DNA of 35,606 nt from Balneolaceae bacterium (GTDB lineage Bacteria; Bacteroidota; Rhodothermia; Balneolales; Balneolaceae). Position 1 is the stretch's first letter. Each line of letters starts with the position of its first letter. The position numbers were made by a program, and so were the translations under genes. This document shows positions 4,913 to 23,632 of this stretch, one piece after another. The notes beneath the pieces are model-generated. The model was not told the origin of the DNA and made no database searches. It saw only the letters and a program-made list of their open reading frames with translations. Location of the stretch: contig SLPZ01000094.1 in assembly GCA_007131725.1 (NCBI GenBank), positions 1 through 35,606 on the forward strand, given 5' to 3'.

Positions 4913-6145
4913 TTACCATAAATTAACTCTTGCTGTGCGGACTCTGACCAGCGGTTCGGTTTGTGTCCAGGCAAAAATCAGCGAATCATCCACTTTTTCC
5001 ATCCGGGGGAATCCGCTGGATCTTGAAGATGAAGTGATTCCCACATTAATGGCTTCACCAAGATCGCCGTTCGGCAGCACTTCCCTGAACATCACATAGC
5101 CGATGTCTTCGTCCCGCCGAAGCCAGCTTACATAGCTTGAGCCTTGATCCGTCATCACAACATCTGCCCGGCCAACGGTGGTTTCCTCAGCCACAACTAT
5201 TGGCTCCTGAAATGTTACACCCCCATCGGGAGACCTGGCCAGCAGTACACGAGGCTCATCATCTGCTTCGGTGTACCATGCAACGGCAACGTAATCACCA
5301 CTCACTGAAATTCGCGGGCCGTTTACCGGGCATGCCAATATCTGCCATTGGTCGTCATGAATCGCAACCGGGTCAGACCATTCACCGGTTTCCTGATCAT
5401 ACCGGCTCATCAGGATATCCCGGATTTCATCTGTAGTTCGTCCGCGGTAAACGGCAATAAAACCGTCATCTGTACGCACAAGGTCGGTCTGGCAGCAGTC
5501 GCAAACCATTTCGTCTATCACACGCTTTCTGTTGATTTCTCCGTCTTTCGACACTTCGGCTGAACGCAAGGTCATCGCTTTTTCGGGGTCGTCGTATTCG
5601 CCATGCCCCCGGCCTTCAGTGTTTCTACCGTCAAGCCAGATGGCCAATACTCTGTCATCACTGAGTGGTTCCATACTCACAAAACCGTGTTCGGTTGCGG
5701 TGCCGTCCAGGTGTGGTGTGATGGGATCTTGCCAGCGTAAAATATGCTCCCCGGGAAATGCGATTTCAACATTATATGCGTAAGGTCCGCCGTCAATTTT
5801 TTTGAGCCAGTGTGCAGCTACCGCTTCGCCGTCGAGGCCTACAATTGATGGAAAATCTGCCCAGTTCACAAAAAAGTCTGTTCCCACTTTAATGCCCCGC
5901 TCCGGGCTCCAGCTTCCGTCATCAAAAATGGCAAATTCCATAGAATACATATCCTCGTCGATGTGAGAGAGCCAGCTCATGTACAGGGCGCCGGTATTAT
6001 CCTGGTAAAGATTTGGAAATCTTGAGCCCACATCAGCAGGATTGTTGAGGGCATATTCGTGTACCGGCTGCTGACGGAGATCCTCACACGAAACGGCAAA
6101 AACCAAAAGAATGATGAAAAGGTACAGGTGCCTTGTAATCTTCAT
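4913..6145 (-). CDS. Lipoprotein with sialidase-like (BNR) beta-propeller
   Basis: I start the gene at the ATG at 6145, giving 410 residues beginning MKITRHLYLF. A TTG three codons upstream would only add a polar extension before the signal peptide. The signal ends in a lipobox (AVSC, Cys near residue 20), so the protein is probably lipid-anchored. The rest consists of repeated strands with Asp-box-like phrases (SPDGGVTFQEP, ETGEWSDPVAI) typical of sialidase/BNR propellers. A conserved-looking CDCCQTD cluster lies at about 5490-5510 and another Cys lies in ILACPVNGP. I do not see a complete sialidase catalytic set (Arg triad, Tyr/Glu), so sialidase activity is not supported; a binding or other hydrolytic role is equally possible. 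It is leftward and upstream of the dipeptidase gene. Confidence 0.8.
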   Translation of the reverse strand: MKITRHLYLFIILLVFAVSCEDLRQQPVHEYALNNPADVGSRFPNLYQDNTGALYMSWLSHIDEDMYSMEFAIFDDGSWSPERGIKVGTDFFVNWADFPSIVGLDGEAVAAHWLKKIDGGPYAYNVEIAFPGEHILRWQDPITPHLDGTATEHGFVSMEPLSDDRVLAIWLDGRNTEGRGHGEYDDPEKAMTLRSAEVSKDGEINRKRVIDEMVCDCCQTDLVRTDDGFIAVYRGRTTDEIRDILMSRYDQETGEWSDPVAIHDDQWQILACPVNGPRISVSGDYVAVAWYTEADDEPRVLLARSPDGGVTFQEPIVVAEETTVGRADVVMTDQGSSYVSWLRRDEDIGYVMFREVLPNGDLGEAINVGITSSSRSSGFPRMEKVDDSLIFAWTQTEPLVRVRTARVNLW

Positions 6146-14902: not shown

Positions 14903-15970
14903 TCACTGATCACTTTTTAATTTAAAAATTGACACGGAGTCATCTATTTCGATTCCCGCAGTATTAACAGCATGCTTATGATTTCTGACCAGCATGATGG
15001 TATCACTCGCCGTGGGGAAGGCAACCCACTCTCCCAGGGGAACATCTCCATAGGATTGCCCATAGAAAACTTTTCGGAATTGTCCGTGGATTTTGGCCAG
15101 AAAATAATCTCCCTGCTCAATGCCGAACTCTTCAAACTCATCAGGATGAAAACCAAGAAATGCATTTCCATAAAATGGGTTGATGTCAATAACCCGGTTT
15201 TTTATTGAATAATCTTCAATGATCGTCCCGGTTTCGCGTTCGGGCAGATACCGGGTTCCCTCACTCACGGGGCTGATGGTTCCTTCATCCAGCCAGGCCT
15301 GCATCGCTTTCAGTGCGCCATATCGCTCTTTCCAGTTTACGTTTACATGGCCCGGCCTCAGCAGCGGACGAAGAGCCGGAACCACATCCGAATTTTCTGC
15401 CCTGGCTGTGTAGGCAACCGGGCCGTCCAGCTCGGTGAGGTTGCTCATCAAAATGGCGGGAATGGATGGGCCGGCCTCAAGGTAGGAGTCATGGGTTTCA
15501 TCTTCCAGGTTTACGAAGGCGCCTTTGGCAATCACCCCGTCAGCGAGATCCGGATTTTGCTCGGCAATGCGCAATACGAGCGTTCCGGCTGTGGATTCTC
15601 CTTCCAGGATCAGCCGTTCAACCGTGCCGATTTCTTCGTGAATAAATTTTTTCAAATCGTACAATGCCGCGGTGTGTGCATCATGATCAACGCCGTTTTC
15701 CAAAAAAGCTGTTCTGCCAATGGCCCAGCCTTCCTCAAGAATTTTCTGATAGAACGGGTCATCAGGGTTGATGTCGGCTTTGTGAGGGGCGTCATCAGGG
15801 CGCCAGCCGTGTACGTGGAAAAACACGTAGCCGCCCTGCCAGTCAACAGGGGTTAAAACCTTGTAGGGAGCTCCATCCAGTTCGCCTTCATGCAGGATGA
15901 AGTTGTTGTTTTGGGCTGTCAGATCAACAGATAAAAACAGAAAAAGAAATGCGAGGATAAAAATTTTCAT
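14903..15970 (-). CDS. Exported alpha/beta hydrolase fused to DUF62-like C-terminal domain
   Basis: This 355-residue protein has a signal peptide (1-19, ending DLTAQ). Residues about 25-235 look like an alpha/beta hydrolase: an HVHGW oxyanion strand, the nucleophile elbow GESTAG, and a candidate catalytic His in RPGHVNVNW. Residues about 255-350 resemble the C-terminal beta domain of SAM hydroxide adenosyltransferases: a V-I-D-I-N-P-F-Y-G-N opening, EEFGIEQGDYF, then QSYGDVPLGEWVAF and AGIEIDDSVSIF. In that family this domain forms half of a SAM site between subunits; the catalytic N-terminal domain is absent here. This is the last gene of the leftward six-gene operon and its ATG overlaps the stop of the thiol oxidoreductase gene by 4 bases. 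Hydrolase substrate and role in the operon are unknown. The hydrolase call is good; the DUF62 similarity was recognised by eye. Confidence 0.75.
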   Translation of the reverse strand: MKIFILAFLFLFLSVDLTAQNNNFILHEGELDGAPYKVLTPVDWQGGYVFFHVHGWRPDDAPHKADINPDDPFYQKILEEGWAIGRTAFLENGVDHDAHTAALYDLKKFIHEEIGTVERLILEGESTAGTLVLRIAEQNPDLADGVIAKGAFVNLEDETHDSYLEAGPSIPAILMSNLTELDGPVAYTARAENSDVVPALRPLLRPGHVNVNWKERYGALKAMQAWLDEGTISPVSEGTRYLPERETGTIIEDYSIKNRVIDINPFYGNAFLGFHPDEFEEFGIEQGDYFLAKIHGQFRKVFYGQSYGDVPLGEWVAFPTASDTIMLVRNHKHAVNTAGIEIDDSVSIFKLKSDQ

Positions 15971-16617
15971 GATGATATTTTCTCAATATTTCGGATGATG
16001 TGGTGCAGGTGGGATTCGATGGTATCGTACGGGCGGTATCCGCGTGAGATTAACCCGGTTTCATCGCCAATTTGCAGCATTAGGGCGGGGAATGCACTGG
16101 CGCCCGTTTTTTTGCACCAGTCAAAATGTTCGTGGGTTTTTTGGGCCGTTTTCTCATCCTGATAGGTTTTTTTGAACTGATCGGGGGTGATCGTGTAATC
16201 TTCAATCAAACCGGTAAATGTGTCAATGTCGTTTAGATTTTCTCCGTCTGTAAACAGTGCATGCTGCAACCTTCCGGCAAAATCGAGAGATTTTTCCGGC
16301 AGCAGTTCGTTGATAGTGGTTTGAGCAATGCAGGACGGCTCCGAATCGTAGAGATAGCTTCCTTCTTCCGCAAGCAGTTTGAAATTTTCACCAAATTCCA
16401 CACCGGTTGTTTTTTCCACCTGCGGGATGGCTCCGCGGATGTAGCTGTATCCTTCTCCGATGGCCTGTGCATTTTCATCAATGGCAAGTCCGCCGGGCAC
16501 TACGTGGATGTGCAGGTTTTCTTTGAACCTGGTGGCCAGTTTATCAATCACCGGATGAAATCCGAAACACCAGCCACAGAGCGGGTCGTAGGCGTAAATC
16601 AGGATAGGTTTCTCCAT
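15967..16617 (-). CDS. DsbA-family (FrnE-like) thiol oxidoreductase
   Basis: This protein of 216 residues has no signal peptide and is probably cytoplasmic. After a first strand (PILIYAYDP) it has the active site C14-G-W-C17 followed by FGFHPVIDKL. An all-helical insert follows, then a thioredoxin-fold second half with the cis-proline region ASAFPALMLQIG. This layout fits the FrnE/DsbA-like group (DSBA domain), whose members are disulfide oxidoreductases or isomerases. It starts 5 bases after a PII-like gene and overlaps the next gene by 4 bases, so it is firmly inside the operon. A redox role in controlling the neighbouring membrane proteins is conceivable but not shown. Confidence 0.85.
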   Translation of the reverse strand: MEKPILIYAYDPLCGWCFGFHPVIDKLATRFKENLHIHVVPGGLAIDENAQAIGEGYSYIRGAIPQVEKTTGVEFGENFKLLAEEGSYLYDSEPSCIAQTTINELLPEKSLDFAGRLQHALFTDGENLNDIDTFTGLIEDYTITPDQFKKTYQDEKTAQKTHEHFDWCKKTGASAFPALMLQIGDETGLISRGYRPYDTIESHLHHIIRNIEKISS

Positions 16618-16622
16618 TCCGT

Positions 16623-16955
16623 TTACTCAATCAGGTGATTGATGCCTGTGGCTTTTTCCACATCAATAACAAAAGCAATTCCGTATCCGGGCTCATTCAG
16701 TTTGGTTGCTTTTACAATAGCTTCGAGCACTTTTTCGGTACGATCGTGGGGCACAAGTGTAAGGATAATATCTTTTTCCGGTTCAATGGCAAAAGAGAAA
16801 AGTTTTGCTTTTTCGTGAATTCCCGATCCACGGCCTGTAATAATGGTGCCACCTTCGGCCCCGGCTTCAAGGGATGCATCGAGCACGGTTCCGCAGTGGC
16901 CTTTATTAACGATGGTTACAATCAGTTCGAAGTCGATATCCTGGTATTTACTCAT
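16623..16955 (-). CDS. PII-like signalling protein, paralogue 2
   Basis: This 110-residue protein has the PII/GlnB ferredoxin-like layout: a strand FELIVTIVNKG, a helix with VLDASLEAGAEGGTII, the GRG turn leading into the T-loop, a strand IILTLVP, a helix VLEAIVKATK, then the ATP-site loop EPGYGIAFVIDVE. The T-loop (HEKAKLFSFAIEPEKD) is close to normal length but has no Tyr, so GlnD-type uridylylation at Tyr51 is not possible. The C-terminal RIRTGE-type end is replaced by ATGINHLIE. It lies 4 bases after a second PII-like gene and 5 bases before a DsbA-like gene. It probably senses a nucleotide or metabolite and binds the neighbouring DUF1538 proteins; this is inferred from context. Confidence 0.88.
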   Translation of the reverse strand: MSKYQDIDFELIVTIVNKGHCGTVLDASLEAGAEGGTIITGRGSGIHEKAKLFSFAIEPEKDIILTLVPHDRTEKVLEAIVKATKLNEPGYGIAFVIDVEKATGINHLIE

Positions 16956-16959
16956 GGTA

Positions 16960-17307
16960 TTATAGATTAAAATCGTTGTTTAAAAGGTGGGCAATTCCGC
17001 AAATGCTTTTGCTGTTCACAACAAACGCGATGCCCGTTCCCGGTTCGTCAAGATTGGCTGATTCTCTCACTTTTGATATGACCGATTCAACTTTGGAATT
17101 CGGAACAAGACAAAGTACAACTGCTTTTTCCGATTCAACTTTCACTCCAAAAATGGAACCGGTGTCTTTTTTGCTGGTGCCGCGGCCCTGCATGACCGTG
17201 CCACCTTCAGCACCTCCTTTTTTCACGGCTTTAATGACCGTCCGTGAGAGTTTTTTCTTTACTATGATAAAAATGAGTTTAAACTCGTCTCCAACTTTTT
17301 TAATCAT
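16960..17307 (-). CDS. PII-like signalling protein, paralogue 1
   Basis: This 115-residue PII-like protein has a strand FKLIFIIVKKK, a helix VIKAVKKGGAEGGTVM, a GRG turn, a T-loop rich in Ser/Thr/Lys (TSKKDTGSIFGVKV, no Tyr), a strand AVVLCLVP, a helix with VISKVRE, and the ATP-site loop DEPGTGIAFVVNSK. It shares the A-E-G-G-T and G-R-G words and the EPGxGIAFV loop with its neighbour, so the two arose by duplication but have drifted far apart. Its ATG lies 8 bases inside the end of a DUF1538 gene, which strongly suggests translational coupling of regulator and membrane protein. Two different PII proteins could form homotrimers or mixed trimers. Confidence 0.88.
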   Translation of the reverse strand: MIKKVGDEFKLIFIIVKKKLSRTVIKAVKKGGAEGGTVMQGRGTSKKDTGSIFGVKVESEKAVVLCLVPNSKVESVISKVRESANLDEPGTGIAFVVNSKSICGIAHLLNNDFNL

Positions 17308-18031
17308 CTGATCTGGATTCTTTGTATTTAAAAAGTAAACCGAGTGTCAAAACGGTCAAAATCGGGGCCAGGGCTACAAGTGCAATCATCCCGAAGCCGT
17401 CAAGCAGCGGATCTCTTCCTTCTAACGTCTCAGCAAAACCAAGTGCTATAGCAAGAATAAAAGTCACCGTCATAGGTCCGGTTGCCACGCCTCCTGCATC
17501 AAAAGCGATGGATGTAAACGTTTCCGTTGAAAAAATGGCCATGGAGAGTGCCAGGAAATATCCCGGCCCGATAAAATACCACAACGGGATGCCGTAAATA
17601 ATTCTTGCCATTGCCAGTGCAATGGAAATTGCAACTCCAATGGATAACGTATAAAGCATCAGTCTGGATGGGATGTAGCCGCTTGTAACCTTGTCAACCT
17701 CGGCATTTAATACCCGTACAGCCGGTTCGGCAAATGTAGCCACAAACCCAAGCAAAAAGCCAACCGGTATTAAAATCCACTGGTAATCCCAATCGCCGAC
17801 AATATCACCGATTTCTCTTCCTACCGGCAAAAACCCAACATGCACTCCTTGAAGGAAAAATGCAAGTCCGACGAATGTCAATACCATGCCAACCATAATG
17901 TCTTTTACCTTTTTCCAGGGAAGTTTTAGCATAAAAACCTGGAAGAAAAAGAAAAACAGCATCAAGGGAATCAGCGCCATTGATACTTCAAAAAGAACAT
18001 CTCCGAAACCGTAAAAAATCTTTACATCCAT
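17300..18031 (-). CDS. DUF1538 membrane protein, half A
   Basis: This polytopic membrane protein of 243 residues has about six or seven hydrophobic segments. Landmarks are GVHVGFLPVGREIG (about 62-75), FVATFAEPAVRVLNAEV (about 96-112), IALAMARIIYGIP, the FDAGGVATGPMTV segment (about 178-190) and LDGFGMIALVALAPI (about 209-223). All recur in the neighbouring half B, so the two are paralogues. As I recall, many DUF1538 proteins are about twice this length and contain two such units, so here the units are separate genes. The Gly-rich helix break in FDAGGV-x-TGPM looks like a transport-site motif, but no substrate is known. It follows half B by 3 bases and overlaps the PII-like gene by 8. Confidence 0.85.
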   Translation of the reverse strand: MDVKIFYGFGDVLFEVSMALIPLMLFFFFFQVFMLKLPWKKVKDIMVGMVLTFVGLAFFLQGVHVGFLPVGREIGDIVGDWDYQWILIPVGFLLGFVATFAEPAVRVLNAEVDKVTSGYIPSRLMLYTLSIGVAISIALAMARIIYGIPLWYFIGPGYFLALSMAIFSTETFTSIAFDAGGVATGPMTVTFILAIALGFAETLEGRDPLLDGFGMIALVALAPILTVLTLGLLFKYKESRSDD

Positions 18032-18034
18032 GCT

Positions 18035-18733
18035 TTATCCGAGAAAAATTCCTAAAAGTAATACTGCAATTAAGGGGCCTATAGATGCCAGTGCAACCAG
18101 TCCAAACCCATCGGCTGATTTGTCATCACTGCGAAGAACAGAAGCCACACCCACGCCAAAAGCCAAAATGAATGGCACGGCCATAGGGCCGGTTGTAACC
18201 CCGCCGGCGTCGAAAGAAATGGGAACAAACTCATCCGGAATCCAGGGTGACAATGCCAGGGCAAATACAACAATGTAGCCGGCAATCAAAATCCATTTGA
18301 TGGAGACTTTCAGAATAACACGCGCCATTGAGAGGGCAACAAAAATTCCAAGGCCAATAGCCACAGGGATAATGAGCGTCCATTTGCCGATGGCACCGTC
18401 AGAAACCTGGTCTACATAACCGGCAAGAACGTGTACATCCGGCTCGGCAACGGTTACTGCAAAACCCAGAACGAAGCTGAAAAGCAGAATCATCCATACT
18501 TTACCGGTGTTTGGGAGCGCCGACCCGATCATTTCGCCCACAGGCAGAAGCCCGATATGCACCCCGATTAAAAAGAGTGCAAATCCAACAGAAACAAATA
18601 GAACACCAACAAGAAACTGCAAGACGGATTCGAAAGGAAGCCAGATTAGTGTGTACTGAAGAATCAGCACCAGGATGGTAATCGGCAAAATTGCATAAAC
18701 AACTTCCCAAATTGTTTCTTCTACTGTTTGCAT
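18035..18733 (-). CDS. DUF1538 membrane protein, half B
   Basis: This 232-residue polytopic membrane protein has the same landmarks as half A: GVHIGLLPVGEMIG, VAEPDVHVLAGYVDQV, VALSMARVILK, FDAGGVTTGPMAV and ADGFGLVALASIGPL. It is the first gene of the six-gene operon and starts at an ATG at 18733, 45 bases after the esterase gene. That gap could hold a promoter or simply be read through. Its partner half A starts 3 bases downstream, so the two are probably made in equal amounts and pair in the inner membrane. Confidence 0.85.
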   Translation of the reverse strand: MQTVEETIWEVVYAILPITILVLILQYTLIWLPFESVLQFLVGVLFVSVGFALFLIGVHIGLLPVGEMIGSALPNTGKVWMILLFSFVLGFAVTVAEPDVHVLAGYVDQVSDGAIGKWTLIIPVAIGLGIFVALSMARVILKVSIKWILIAGYIVVFALALSPWIPDEFVPISFDAGGVTTGPMAVPFILAFGVGVASVLRSDDKSADGFGLVALASIGPLIAVLLLGIFLG

Positions 18734-18778: not shown

Positions 18779-19453
18779 TCAATTGCTTGATATCACTGTA
18801 TCGATCAATTTATTGACTTCCATTATCTCATCTGCATTTACGGTGTGCCCCATTCCGGAATAGATTTTTTTGGTGATATCGGCGCCAAGTTTCTCCAGAA
18901 CTTCCTCGGTTTGATGAACCCGTTCAACGGGAATGTGCGGGTCCACATCAGAGCAGCCGAGAAAACAGGGGGTGTTCTCCAGCGATCCTGAATAGTTTTC
19001 TGCTGAAACAGTATCTCCGATCAGTCCACCGCTCAGCGCTGCAAGGCCGCCATACCGTGCAGGATGCCTCGCCATAAATTCTGATACAAGGCAGCCACCC
19101 TGCGAAAATCCAAGCAGAATGATTTTCTCTTTTGGGATGCCCTGCTTTTCAAGGTCTGTGATGATATCAAAAATAGCCTGAAGGCCGGAAGAGAGCCCCG
19201 GCTCGTTTTGCTCTGTTGGTGATAAAAATGAGTAGGGATACCACGCGAACTTGGTTGCCTGGGGTGCGGCAAAGTGCATGCCTTCGGTATTTTCAAACTC
19301 GTTGGCGAGCGTTAAAATACTTTCGGCCGAGGCGCCCCGCCCGTGAACCAGGATCATGGCGGCCTTAGCGCCTGCTGGATCTGCCCCGGCTGTTACCGTT
19401 TTACTATTTTGATGCGGCCCCTGAAACGGGTTTTCTAAATTGGCTCTGAACAT
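18779..19453 (-). CDS. Phospholipase/carboxylesterase-family hydrolase (MhqD-like)
   Basis: I start at the ATG at 19453 (MFRANLENPF), giving 224 residues; an upstream TTG adds 27 residues that run through an intergenic palindrome and are unlikely to be coding. It is an alpha/beta hydrolase with the oxyanion strand MILVHGRGA, the nucleophile elbow GFSQGG, a catalytic Asp in GCSDVDPHIP and a catalytic His in SGMGHTVNADE. There is no signal peptide. The size fits the cytoplasmic carboxylesterase/YpfH-MhqD group. The VOC dioxygenase gene lies upstream on the same strand; in Bacillus subtilis mhqE (dioxygenase) and mhqD (hydrolase) form an operon for quinone and catechol stress, and this pair may do the same job. 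Confidence 0.85.
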   Translation of the reverse strand: MFRANLENPFQGPHQNSKTVTAGADPAGAKAAMILVHGRGASAESILTLANEFENTEGMHFAAPQATKFAWYPYSFLSPTEQNEPGLSSGLQAIFDIITDLEKQGIPKEKIILLGFSQGGCLVSEFMARHPARYGGLAALSGGLIGDTVSAENYSGSLENTPCFLGCSDVDPHIPVERVHQTEEVLEKLGADITKKIYSGMGHTVNADEIMEVNKLIDTVISSN

Positions 19454-19495
19454 GGTCTGTTTTTGAATGTTTAGGATGATTCTATTTTTAAGAAC

Positions 19496-19521
19496 CTGCG
19501 AGCGTCCGAAGGTCCTCGCAG
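19496..19521. repeat. Hairpin CTGCGAG...CTCGCAG
   Basis: Seven-base arms CTGCGAG and CTCGCAG enclose a GTCCGAAGG-type loop. The GCGAGGGTC-CGAAG-type palindrome is another familiar intergenic word in Bacteroidota. It lies about 40 bases upstream of the esterase ATG, in its leader or promoter region. Confidence 0.6.
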
Positions 19522-19577
19522 CGTTCGGGATCAAAGTTTGTACTATTATTTCAATATGTAAGTTAGCAGGTTGGGAA

Positions 19578-19784: not shown

Positions 19785-20714
19785 TCACAAATCCGGCAGT
19801 TTTCGTTCAATTTCATCCCGGTGTTTCTCATGCCAGGGCGGCAGTTTTAGTTCACTGCCCAGGCTTTCCAGTGGTTCGTCGTGTGTGAAACCGGGGATGT
19901 CTGTAGCAATTTCAAAAAGCACACCGCCCGGCTCACGGAAGTAGATAGACCGGAAATACATCCGGTTTTGAACGGGTGTTGGCTGAAAGCCCATTTCCTG
20001 CAGTTTTTCCCGCCAATCCAGTTGTGTTTCATCATCCGGTACCCGAAAAGCGATATGGTGGATCGAGCCTCTCCCGAACCTGCCGCTGAGCCCGGGTTCT
20101 TGTTCCAGGTCAACAGTTGTGCCGAGGTTATTATCTGTGTCGATAGTATACCGCAGTGTGTCTTCTGTTTCGGCAGACTTTTTCCAGCCAAATTCCGACA
20201 GCAGTTCGGCTGTGCGACCGGTGTCATTCAATGAGAGGGTGGCTCCGTAAAAACCGCGAATGGCAGCCGATTCATCAATCCTATCGGCAGGGTTTGGTTT
20301 CACTTTATCGATACCATCACTCTCAACCAGCTCATTTTTCATTCCTTCCACATCTTTAAAAAGCAGTCGGGTGTCATCAAATACCGATTCTTCTGAAAGA
20401 ATTTCCACTTCATGTTTTTTCAAATGCCCTTTCCAGAATTCAATGCTTCCCTTGGGCACAGCATAAGCCGTCACAGTAGTTTCGCCGGTGTTGGGGCTGC
20501 CCTGCACCACCCCCTGCCACGGGAAAAACGTGATGGAGCTGCCCGGGGTGGCCTCATAATTTCCATAATATAAATGGTAGGTAAACGGGTCATCAAAATT
20601 TACAGTCTTCTTGGTGAACCTCAGGCCGAGCACCTTTGTGTAAAAATCGTAGTTCTCCTTCGGCGGGCCGGAAACCGCGGTGATGTGGTGGATGCCCTTT
20701 ATTGGTGATGGCAT
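19785..20714 (-). CDS. Ring-cleaving dioxygenase, VOC/glyoxalase family (MhqE/MhqO-like)
   Basis: I start at the ATG at 20714 (MPSPIKGIHHITAV), giving 309 residues; an upstream in-frame Met adds 14 residues not typical of the family. It has two VOC modules: residues about 5-130 with His in GIHHITAV, and about 150-285 with GRGSIHHIAFRVPDD and GVLFEIATDIPGF. The expected metal ligands are the N-terminal His, the His in SIHHIAF and the Glu in LFEIAT. The closing FTHDEPLESLGSELKLPPW segment is typical of the MhqA/MhqE/MhqO group. In Bacillus these remove methylhydroquinone-like quinones and catechols. The esterase gene lies downstream on the same strand, an mhqE-mhqD-like pair. No MarR-type (MhqR) regulator is seen nearby. 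The family call is firm, the substrate inferred. Confidence 0.88.
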   Translation of the reverse strand: MPSPIKGIHHITAVSGPPKENYDFYTKVLGLRFTKKTVNFDDPFTYHLYYGNYEATPGSSITFFPWQGVVQGSPNTGETTVTAYAVPKGSIEFWKGHLKKHEVEILSEESVFDDTRLLFKDVEGMKNELVESDGIDKVKPNPADRIDESAAIRGFYGATLSLNDTGRTAELLSEFGWKKSAETEDTLRYTIDTDNNLGTTVDLEQEPGLSGRFGRGSIHHIAFRVPDDETQLDWREKLQEMGFQPTPVQNRMYFRSIYFREPGGVLFEIATDIPGFTHDEPLESLGSELKLPPWHEKHRDEIERKLPDL

Positions 20715-21372
20715 AAAAATGTATGATTGATTCTGGGTTGTGATTCGAAGTGGCACAAATTTTCTTTTAACCAGACTAAAGATAAGGAATAATAGTTTAA
20801 CATTAAACTAAATATCATAACATCTGAACAAATTGTAATGACTAACAGAATTCAATATCATACTATAACTTTTTATAACTGTAAATAATATTGTTAAACA
20901 TATAATATTGAATTTATTATGTTTAACATCATTTCGATATAAAAAAAATAGTTGAAGTATCATTAGAATCTTCCGCTTCAATAGCACTTTGTATTTACGG
21001 GTGCCACTTATGCTTTTTTGATGCTCCAAAGGAATGGCTATGCCACAAAGATATACCCCATTTTTTTAAAATGATTTTCCACTTTCTGAATAGAAATCTC
21101 TATGATTTTAATTGATTTATAAAGCGTTAATTGGAAATTTCGAATTTACTCATCAACCTAATCTTCTTGAATTTGTTATAAAGAGAATGTAGTTTTTCCA
21201 AATGTGACGGCTATCCTGCGATAAACAGTTATTGTACTGATTTCAAATATTGAAACATACAAAGAGGATTGATTTAATAGAGTCATATCTTAATATATTA
21301 CAGGTGACTGCCGGTTATGTTAAATTAATTCAATTAATTGGATGTCCACCTCAAACAGAATAAAAAGCTTCT
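20715..21372. other. Divergent AT-rich promoter region
   Basis: This 658-base stretch separates the leftward dioxygenase gene from the rightward permease gene. Bases 20770-20960 are very AT-rich with several short inverted words (for example AATATTG near 20887-20910). Promoters for both genes must lie here, but I cannot place them. Open frames in it lack protein character. I see no RNA gene or repeat family in it. Confidence 0.6.
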
Positions 21373-23632
21373 ATGAGTAACCGGCAGAGAGAGTTAGCCA
21401 AGGATCTGAACCTGACTGCCGCACTGACTATTGGTGTGGGAACCATGATCGGCGCTGGAATATTTGTGCTTCCAGCTGTGGCAGCCGCCAGCACCGGCCC
21501 TGCTGCAGGCATCGCGTTTGTAGTAGCGGGGTTTATCGCCCTGTTTACAGCACTGTCAATCAGCGAACTCCGGCACGGCGATGCCAAAATCAGGCGGTGC
21601 TTATTATTATATAAACGATTCGCTGGGGCCGCTTTTTGGGTCAGTAGCAGGCTGGGGCAACTGGCTCGGACTCATTTTTGCCACCGCCTTTTATATGATC
21701 GGGTTTGGGAGCTATCTGACGATCTTATTTCCTGTGCCTGATCTTTTTTTTCTTTCAGCCTCTCAGGTTGGCGCATTGATTGCCGCAATCATTTTTATAG
21801 GGGTTAACTATTACGGAACCAAGGAGACTGGCAGGCTTCAAATCATCATTGTGGTTATACTGGTGGGAATACTGGCCATTTTCAGCTTTGTGGGCCTGTT
21901 CCATGTAAACCTGGATAATCTTCAGCCGCTGGCTCCCGAAGAAACCGGGGGATGGTTTGCTGTCCTGCCAGCGGCAGGCCTGATTTTTGTAACCTACCTC
22001 GGCTTTGCTGAAATCAATACAGTAGCTGAGGAGCTGAAAAATCCCAACCGGAATCTGCCGATTGCTGTTATTGGCAGCCTTCTGTTTGTGATTGTTTTGT
22101 ATGCTCTTGTGATGTTTGTGATTATGGGTGTGGAACCCTATGAGACGGTTGTTGGATATGGTGAGCGGGCTGTGGCACTTGTGGCAGAAACCATGCTTGG
22201 CTGGCCGGGCCTCATTTTGCTAACTCTCGGAGGGCTCCTGGCAACGGCATCATCGGCAAATGCATCCATTCTTGCTTCTTCCAGAATTTGTTTTGCAATG
22301 GGGCGCGATCACATCATCACAGACTGGTTAAACCAGATTCACAGAAAGTTTTTCACTCCCTACCGTTCCATTGGCCTGACCGGTGCACTTATTGTTTTGT
22401 TTGTATTGGTTGGAGACATTGAAGTACTCGCAAAGGCGGGCAGCGTGCTGCACCTGATAGTCTACGGGCTGCTTAACATCGGTTTAATCGTGTACAGGCA
22501 ATCTCAGACCACAGAGTACAAACCGGCATTTAGAGTTCCCTTCTATCCTGTTGTACCCATTTTGGGGGCAGTGCTATCATTTGGCCTGATAGCTTTCATG
22601 GCTACAATGGAGATTGTCCTCAGTTTGCTTTTTGTGATATTCGGTGTGCTTTGGTACCTGTTTTACGTAACCAGGCATGTGGATAAGGTAAGCCTTGTGG
22701 GTGAGGCAATAGCCCACACCGCAGTCGAACCGGTTGAAACAACAAAAGCTTACCGTATTATTGTTCCTTTGGCAAACCCTGATACTCAGCCGGAGTTATT
22801 GCGGCTGGCTGCGGCAAGCGGAAGTTTACACGCAAAAGAAGATCCTGAAATTGTAGCGGTGAACGTGATGGAAATACCGATGCAAACTTCCCTGGAACAG
22901 AAAATCTTATTTGAGGAAGAACGCATTGAACGCCAGCGCAAACTGCTCCTGAATGCCAAAGAATCCGCAATGGATCTCGATGTAAATATTCGTACCCGGG
23001 CAATTCTTGGGCGGAATGTTGCAAAAATCCTGCTCTCTGTTTTGAAGGAAGAAAATGCAGATCATGTGCTTCTGGGTTGGCGCGGAAAACGCAGCAGGCG
23101 CGAACATATACTTGGCTCTACACTCGACCCGATTTTAAAGATGGCACCTTGCGAAGTGACTCTTGCCCACATAAAACAAGCTTCCATCGGCAGTATAGTT
23201 GCACTGGCTGGGCCGGGTCCTCACTCACCTGTAGCTGCCCGCCGGGCATTCGAATTTGCAAGGCTGGAAAATAAAAAACCAACTTTGTTAAATGTTCAGC
23301 GCCCTTCGTCTGACAGTGAAACAGACCCGGAAAAAGCCGGCAGGCAAGCAGTAAAAAAAGTAGCACGCGAAGCCGGGCTTGAGCCGGGCTCTTATGATGT
23401 CAAGGTATTCGTGACCGATAATCTGAAACCCGCCATCATAGAAGCAGTCAATAAATACGATACAGTTTGTGTTGGAATGTCCACAACAAGCGCCATGGAA
23501 AGAATTCTATTCGGATCGCTTGCAGAACGAATCGGGAGAAAAGCAAAAGGAAACGTAATTATGGTTCGCGGCCCGTTCAGGATGCACCGTACCATTCGCC
23601 AGGCTTTGGCCGAACGCCTCATGAAAGGGTGA
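21373..23632 (+). pseudogene. APC amino-acid permease with two UspA domains, one-base frameshift
   Basis: From ATG 21373 the frame encodes MSNRQRELAKDLNLTAALT, the GVGTMIGAGIFVLP substrate-site helix and FTALSISEL, then turns into unrelated residues. From 21581 a second frame carries on with MPKSGGAYYYINDSLGPLFG, exactly what should follow in this family. Removing one C near 21570-21571 joins them as SISEL-GT-AMPKSGG and gives a 752-residue protein. It has about twelve membrane helices (to about 440) and two cytoplasmic UspA-like domains (about 455-597 and 604-732), whose second ends in a G-x-x-x-x(9)-G-S nucleotide-loop pattern. Permease-UspA fusions are probably amino-acid or cation/amino-acid transporters under stress control. 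The rest of the gene is well kept, so the shift is recent or an assembly error. Confidence 0.85.

Follow-up and report, generated by a model that had tools for sequence, protein, structure and literature searches.

A candidate PII-gated cation/proton antiporter encoded by linked DUF1538 and PII genes

Introduction

In a 35,606-nucleotide stretch of a Balneolaceae bacterium (contig SLPZ01000094.1, assembly GCA_007131725.1; hereafter, the window), six tightly packed open reading frames (ORFs) run on the minus strand from position 18733 down to 14903. The first four encode two DUF1538 membrane proteins, DUF1538-A and DUF1538-B, followed by two PII-type proteins, PII-1 and PII-2. We observed that the pairing of DUF1538 with PII is conserved in gene order and in co-occurrence across genomes, that both partners come as paralogues, and that the linked PII proteins carry residue changes. 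With reasonable confidence, we regard a PII-gated monovalent cation/H+ antiporter as the most likely reading of the operon core.

Few signal proteins are as widespread as the PII proteins, yet to our knowledge only a few transporters are under PII control. These include AmtB-GlnK, an ammonium channel with its PII, and SbtA-SbtB, a bicarbonate transporter with its PII-like protein. The pair described here adds a candidate: in the loci that we examined, which come from several bacterial phyla and from methanogenic archaea, its genes were adjacent almost without exception. This suggests a dedicated sensor on a cation/proton antiporter, that is, on a salt and pH pump.

Results

PII genes follow DUF1538 genes in Bacteria and Archaea

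An earlier reading of the window from its letters alone (the sequence-only reading) had proposed a PII-controlled membrane system with the DUF1538 pair as transporter and with a thiol oxidoreductase and a hydrolase as new partners, and had suggested a search for DUF1538 beside PII-like genes in other genomes. We pooled 169 loci, 160 of them distinct; the set includes the window, a Bacteroidota locus (L219) and a repeat locus (L218). A PII gene was found downstream of DUF1538 in 154 of the 160 distinct loci, on the same strand in every case, so that a conserved transporter-PII gene pair, as in PII-controlled transporters, is present here. The distance from the DUF1538 stop codon to the first aligned PII residue had a median of 14 bp, was at most 60 bp in 142 of the 154 loci and reached a maximum of 314 bp. 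The order was seen in Balneolota, Bacillota, Desulfobacterota, methanogens and others, and recurs far more often than chance. Three of the six loci that lacked PII stop at a contig edge (L045, L097, and L125); the other three are without it.

The individual samples gave similar counts. PII followed DUF1538 in 33 of 34 stretches from relatives of the window, the remaining contig ending at that point, and in 74 of 80 named loci that a genome scan returned; these were the best matches to the query and are so biased toward it. In the phylum of Hungatella, PII was present in 40/40 stretches (one each from 40 of the 101 genomes with DUF1538, hand-picked and mostly away from contig ends) and then in 8/8 more. 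All four plasmid records examined, out of nine, carried PII. A further 16 Desulfobacterota stretches, which may include duplicates of the 160, had PII in 13; of the remaining three, two are cut off by a contig edge and one has an incomplete DUF1538. We discarded a viral origin: none of 48 pattern-matched stretches in viral contigs contained a DUF1538 relative.

The two genes also co-occur across whole genomes. Among 58 relatives of the window, a profile of the linked PII matched at 80 bits or more in 34 of the 35 genomes with DUF1538 and in none of the 23 without; in the exception (G028), the contig ends right after DUF1538. Weaker matches of 33-71 bits appeared in six of the 58, two of which lack DUF1538. 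Of 299 genomes from the phylum of Hungatella, 101 had DUF1538, 102 had PII (counted at an E-value of 1e-10 or better) and 100 had both, so that PII was present in 100/101 genomes with DUF1538 versus 2/198 others (Fisher p = 2e-76, with relatedness ignored). One genome (G490) had DUF1538 alone, and two (G483 and G656) had PII alone. Strong linkage and near-complete co-occurrence thus support the PII-linked DUF1538 system at the center of the sequence-only reading; the oxidoreductase and the hydrolase, found in no locus outside the window's relatives at the thresholds applied, drop out of it.

We clustered 3331 ORFs of at least 90 aa from the 160 distinct loci. The largest groups were DUF1538 (160 loci), PII (154), an apparent antisense ORF to the PII region (137) and an ATP-binding cassette (ABC) ATPase (18), and no third conserved neighbor of DUF1538-PII was found in these loci. 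This result bears on the possibility that PII does not touch the transporter but senses cation, pH or nucleotide status, perhaps arising partly from transporter activity, and acts on other targets such as enzymes or transcription, with co-transcription only matching the levels of the two. PII proteins do control enzymes and transcription factors as well as transporters, and a few loci hold the transporter without PII. However, no other partner gene is conserved nearby, and the linkage is near-strict in Bacteria and sampled Archaea, persisting whether the genes are fused or split and also where one PII has taken the place of two; such linkage is more typical of a protein complex. We consider a PII acting elsewhere unlikely.

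DUF1538-linked PII proteins form a distinct group

Both PII proteins of the window pass the Pfam cut-off (PF00543; Table 1), and PII-2 retains the GRG.G and EPEK motifs. We built trees of 300 DUF1538 domains and 264 DUF1538-linked PII domains, omitting short domains and 15 loci that were duplicates or unusual. All 264 linked domains separated, with a support of 0.993, from six comparison PII proteins, three of which are near-identical and come from relatives of the window's genus. Three PII-like proteins of other loci grouped on the DUF1538-linked side of the tree.

The group differs from the comparison proteins at the ligand site. The C-loop arginine of the ATP site, which we take to be R101 in E. 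coli numbering, is replaced by glycine in all 147 second and single PII domains, whereas it is arginine in 6/6 comparison proteins. Glycine also occupies this position in 97 of 117 first domains and in both PII-1 and PII-2. In the group consensus, the T-loop region is shorter by some 5-6 columns, and alignments to solved PII proteins gave the same loop differences. We dropped the loss of the ATP-site lysine that follows GDG (presumably K90) as a mark of the group. That position is hydrophobic, mostly isoleucine, in all but one of the 264 linked domains, but it is no clear mark because half of the six comparison proteins also lack the lysine and are hydrophobic there (isoleucine in three, lysine in two, arginine in one). 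Loss of this arginine from the nucleotide site makes it probable that the signal is other than the classic ATP/2-oxoglutarate pair. The linked proteins mark out a PII group whose ligand site departs from the textbook one.

A tandem relative from another locus (L054, not the window's own protein) was predicted as two PII folds, with a predicted local distance difference test score (pLDDT) of 76 and template-modeling (TM) scores of ~0.7 to solved PII chains, including GlnK chain 2ns1_B of the AmtB-GlnK complex. In two of six genomes searched, the DUF1538-linked PII was the sole PII.

PII-like genes were also seen near other membrane proteins. At L210:3791-5698, a gene for a CPA1-type Na+/H+ exchanger with a TrkA_C domain is followed directly by one for a divergent PII-like protein. 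In L209 (3965-5956), a close relative of this PII-like gene is convergent with the gene of a 512-aa membrane protein that matches no Pfam family, and near another (L211:5353-5733) we noticed no antiporter. PII-like proteins may serve more than one antiporter family.

Both partners are paralogue pairs

Gene arrangements vary, and many combinations were seen: DUF1538 genes come in pairs or as a fusion, and PII is encoded by a single gene, by two, or by a fused tandem. Neither the 169 loci (279 DUF1538 ORFs and 211 PII ORFs) nor the 16 stretches from Desulfobacterota contained a DUF1538-PII fusion. A single DUF1538 stands beside a single PII in six loci (L174, L184, and L202-L205). In four others, a three-domain PII chain lies beside a fused DUF1538 pair (L219:6001-7143, L237:4324-5433, L238:6470-7852, and L239:4388-5533), although in two of the four the first of the three PII domains is weak; such a chain is perhaps the single-chain counterpart of a PII trimer. 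A pairing of three DUF1538 domains per chain with three PII domains was rejected, the DUF1538 chains in question being two domains with inserts. These natural two- and three-domain PII fusions should be useful for structural work.

In the trees, the A domains of DUF1538 (146) separated from the B domains (146) without exception, as did the first PII domains (117) from the second (116), each with a support of at least 0.99. PII-1 of the window falls in the clade of first PII domains (117/117, support 0.99), and PII-2 lies on the other side. Because A and B, and first and second PII domains, separate so cleanly, DUF1538 and the linked PII are each an ancient paralogue pair.

The DUF1538 pair is a distant relative of UmpAB

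Both DUF1538 proteins of the window score far above the gathering score of PF07556 (Table 1). The best NCBIfam model was UmpA (NF041627, 124.1 bits) for DUF1538-A and UmpB (NF041628, 121.8 bits) for DUF1538-B. As in UmpAB, the two genes are adjacent, A then B, and the encoded proteins belong to the same Pfam family; A fits UmpA better and B fits UmpB. Work in E. coli KNabc (PMC5484666; Meng et al., 2017) showed that UmpAB of Halomonas zhaodongensis forms a heterodimer and exchanges Na+(Li+,K+) for H+, with an optimum at pH 9.0. The statement in the sequence-only reading that the substrate is unknown was too strong because the pair belongs to the family of this proven antiporter. Judged by sequence, the pair in the window belongs, at a distance, to a family in which one antiporter is proven, and is not classed as UmpAB itself. 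Because its proteins fall far below the equivalog cut-offs of UmpA (490 bits) and UmpB (500 bits), we infer its transport activity only from distant relatives.

Among the matches listed, the closest relatives of UmpB were in four Desulfobacterota loci (314-324 bits, still under the cut-off), all of which have A, B and PII in this order. In three of these four loci, a gene with two CBS domains comes after PII (L229:7187-7651, L231:7218-7685, and L232:7275-7676); CBS domains often bind adenine nucleotides.

The acidic residues of two motifs, AEP and FD.GG, were invariant in two DUF1538 alignments (12 and 35 sequences). For L052, in which the DUF1538 pair is naturally fused, the predicted model reached a pLDDT of 84 and a predicted TM score (pTM) of 0.84. 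In both halves of this model, AEP sits at a helix break, and FD.GG just ahead of or into the next one; this arrangement would resemble that of many ion transporters. A Foldseek search of solved structures returned 340 matches up to an E-value of 10, none at 0.001 or below (best E 0.015), with TM scores of at most 0.22 among the best 50 of the 340. We found no solved transporter fold related to DUF1538 by sequence. The absence of a structural match to the model falls short of proving a new fold.

Another substrate in the window's branch, such as ammonium, bicarbonate or a divalent cation, with antiport limited to an UmpAB subgroup, would also fit some of these data. The window proteins reach ~120 bits against equivalog cut-offs of 490 and 500, ammonium and bicarbonate transporters are among the known PII partners, and the family occurs in gut Clostridia and methanogens, not in halophiles alone. 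On the other hand, the acidic motif residues are invariant, the UmpAB-like loci share the A-B-PII order, and many hosts are halophiles or alkaliphiles judging from their names (an impression, uncounted). We consider a different substrate rather unlikely. DUF1538 appears among the key pH-adaptation genes of a 2026 machine-learning study (PMC13255231). In one relative (L039, G017:C252), the DUF1538-B gene is broken by a stop codon at ~5283-5302, reflecting decay or an assembly error.

A PII-gated antiporter as the favored reading

In the antiporter that we favor, DUF1538-A and DUF1538-B would form a heteromeric secondary transporter that swaps monovalent cations (Na+, perhaps K+) for protons, with PII-1 and PII-2 as its dedicated PII-type regulator. 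The PII proteins would most likely be seated on the A/B transporter from its cytoplasmic side and turn it on or off in response to an intracellular signal, as GlnK does on AmtB and SbtB on SbtA. Direct binding of PII to DUF1538, and gating by it, are suggested by analogy with these systems.

The analogies are partial. As in AmtB-GlnK, a transporter gene is directly linked to a PII gene, and the predicted PII fold resembles GlnK; however, DUF1538 is not Amt, the linked PII has a shorter T-loop and lacks the ATP-site arginine, and DUF1538 loci usually have two PII domains instead of one. As described for SbtA-SbtB (PMC10991534), a transporter is paired with a dedicated non-classic PII-like partner, although the transporter is of another family. 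In Geobacter, PII-NG is a non-canonical PII encoded beside a cation/proton antiporter, but that antiporter is of the CzcABC type for metal export and not DUF1538 (PMC7726332). That report places PII-NG in a clade of Proteobacteria that arose from GlnB/GlnK.

Several observations weigh against a PII-gated antiporter. In E. coli, UmpAB functioned with no PII cloned alongside it (PMC5484666). Three Bacillus-like loci, two of Sutcliffiella (L086 and L090) and one of Metabacillus lacus (L102), keep a DUF1538 pair without PII, and one of the genomes with such a locus (G430) has a classic-type PII only. Two transporter domains face one PII in 23/169 loci, and in three more the second PII counted is a distant, weakly matching gene. 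A promoter-like site lies within PII-2 (16792-16765; such matches are not clearly above chance), and the shortfall from the UmpA and UmpB cut-offs adds to this list. Because some loci dispense with PII, one of them in a genome with classic PII only, PII is not indispensable; because a lone PII accompanies two transporter domains in many loci, there is no fixed 1:1 stoichiometry. Since UmpAB works without a co-cloned PII, PII would more likely be a brake or tuner than a required subunit.

A broader version is that the pair is an ancient signal-gated exchanger of Bacteria and Archaea, in which a transporter of unseen fold is governed by a heteromeric PII ring that lacks the classic ATP/2-oxoglutarate site and reads another signal, such as cytoplasmic cation, pH or another nucleotide. 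We put this forward tentatively, as a possibility on the doubtful side. If it were true, PII, a sensor of nitrogen, carbon and energy, would also run salt and pH homeostasis.

We found no report of the DUF1538-PII link in the literature searched (subscription papers and preprints were outside its scope). The main texts of papers naming DUF1538 gave no match to a PII protein, a lone "PII" string being part of a peptide motif, and cable-bacteria papers that mention umpAB gave no match to PII. The main text of the UmpAB report (PMC5484666) contains no PII or P-II term, and its cloned fragment, as described there, terminates at the umpAB genes. One further paper (PMC7143216) proved unrelated. Public annotation already shows DUF1538 and PII genes side by side, unremarked; the pattern now becomes testable in the E. 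coli strain used for UmpAB.

Layout of the window locus

The six genes and their spacing agree exactly with the sequence-only reading: gaps or overlaps between consecutive ORFs are 3, -8, 4, 5 and -4 bases, the 8-base overlap being that of the PII-1 start with the DUF1538-B stop (Table 1). Neither promoter-like sites (14 versus 8.3 expected, standard deviation 3.1) nor terminator-like sites (6 versus 7.3 expected) were clearly above chance in the region; one terminator-like site (14800-14786) comes after the last gene, that of the hydrolase. The esterase gene, which the sequence-only reading did not include, may be on the same transcript as the six genes. We found no second DUF1538 locus in the window's genome, the assembly of which is 88.6% complete. 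Elsewhere in the window, a gene resembling amino-acid permeases spans two overlapping frames (21373-21741 and 21581-23632), perhaps through a frameshift or an assembly error.

Table 1. Genes of the DUF1538-PII locus in the window. Pfam cut-offs (bits): DUF1538, 22.6; P-II, 25; Thioredoxin_5, 27; DSBA, 25.6; SAM_HAT_C, 25.5.
Feature	Coordinates	Strand	Length and evidence
DUF1538-A, predicted UmpA-like antiporter subunit	18035..18733	-	232 aa; PF07556 247.8 bits; A group
DUF1538-B, predicted UmpB-like antiporter subunit	17300..18031	-	243 aa; PF07556 257.6 bits; B group
PII-1, first and more divergent DUF1538-linked PII	16960..17307	-	115 aa; PF00543 37.4 bits
PII-2, second DUF1538-linked PII	16623..16955	-	110 aa; PF00543 37.9 bits
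DsbA/thioredoxin-like protein, CGWC motif	15967..16617	-	216 aa; Thioredoxin_5 29.1 bits
Exported hydrolase-like protein, C-terminal SAM_HAT_C-like domain	14903..15970	-	355 aa; SAM_HAT_C 28.9 bits
Abhydrolase_2 esterase	18779..19534	-	PF02230 96.1 bits; 45 bp upstream of DUF1538-A

Neighboring genes are specific to the window's relatives

The DsbA-like protein scored 21.3 bits against the DSBA model, under its cut-off. The hydrolase, whose SAM_HAT_C match sits on its C-terminal part, has a signal peptide and a GESTAG motif, both read by eye. In the sequence-only reading, this oxidoreductase and this hydrolase were new partners of the system. We rejected them as core partners: among same-genus loci besides the window, the DsbA-like gene was present in 11/13 and the hydrolase gene in 10/13, and neither had a member beyond the window's relatives by clustering or by phmmer at 1e-5. 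A 14-bit match of a loose DsbA-like profile in a Clostridia locus (L221) was judged unrelated. In the clustering, the esterase group spanned 13 loci, the DsbA-like group 12 and the hydrolase group 11, none outside the window's relatives; the esterase lies upstream of DUF1538-A in 11/13 same-genus loci and in L045 of another genus. The DsbA-like protein, the hydrolase and the esterase are lineage-specific passengers outside the core.

The cluster of six or seven genes might instead work as one unit, for example in protection against electrophiles or oxidants, combining the thiol oxidoreductase, the hydrolases and a glyoxalase-fold enzyme with K+/H+ exchange; the KefC system of E. coli is a model for protection coupled to such exchange. 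Tight spacing on a single strand would suit this idea, as would the esterase and glyoxalase-fold genes upstream and a glyoxalase of the same family beside a PII-less DUF1538 pair in two Sutcliffiella genomes. Against this, the DsbA-like, hydrolase and esterase groups are confined to the window's relatives, and even within the genus the DsbA-like gene is absent from 2/13 loci and the hydrolase gene from 3/13. We regard a single functional unit as quite improbable. The glyoxalase-fold gene upstream of the window operon lies at 19785-20756; its Sutcliffiella counterparts (L086:5760-6728 and L090:6388-7362) adjoin the DUF1538 pair on the opposite strand.

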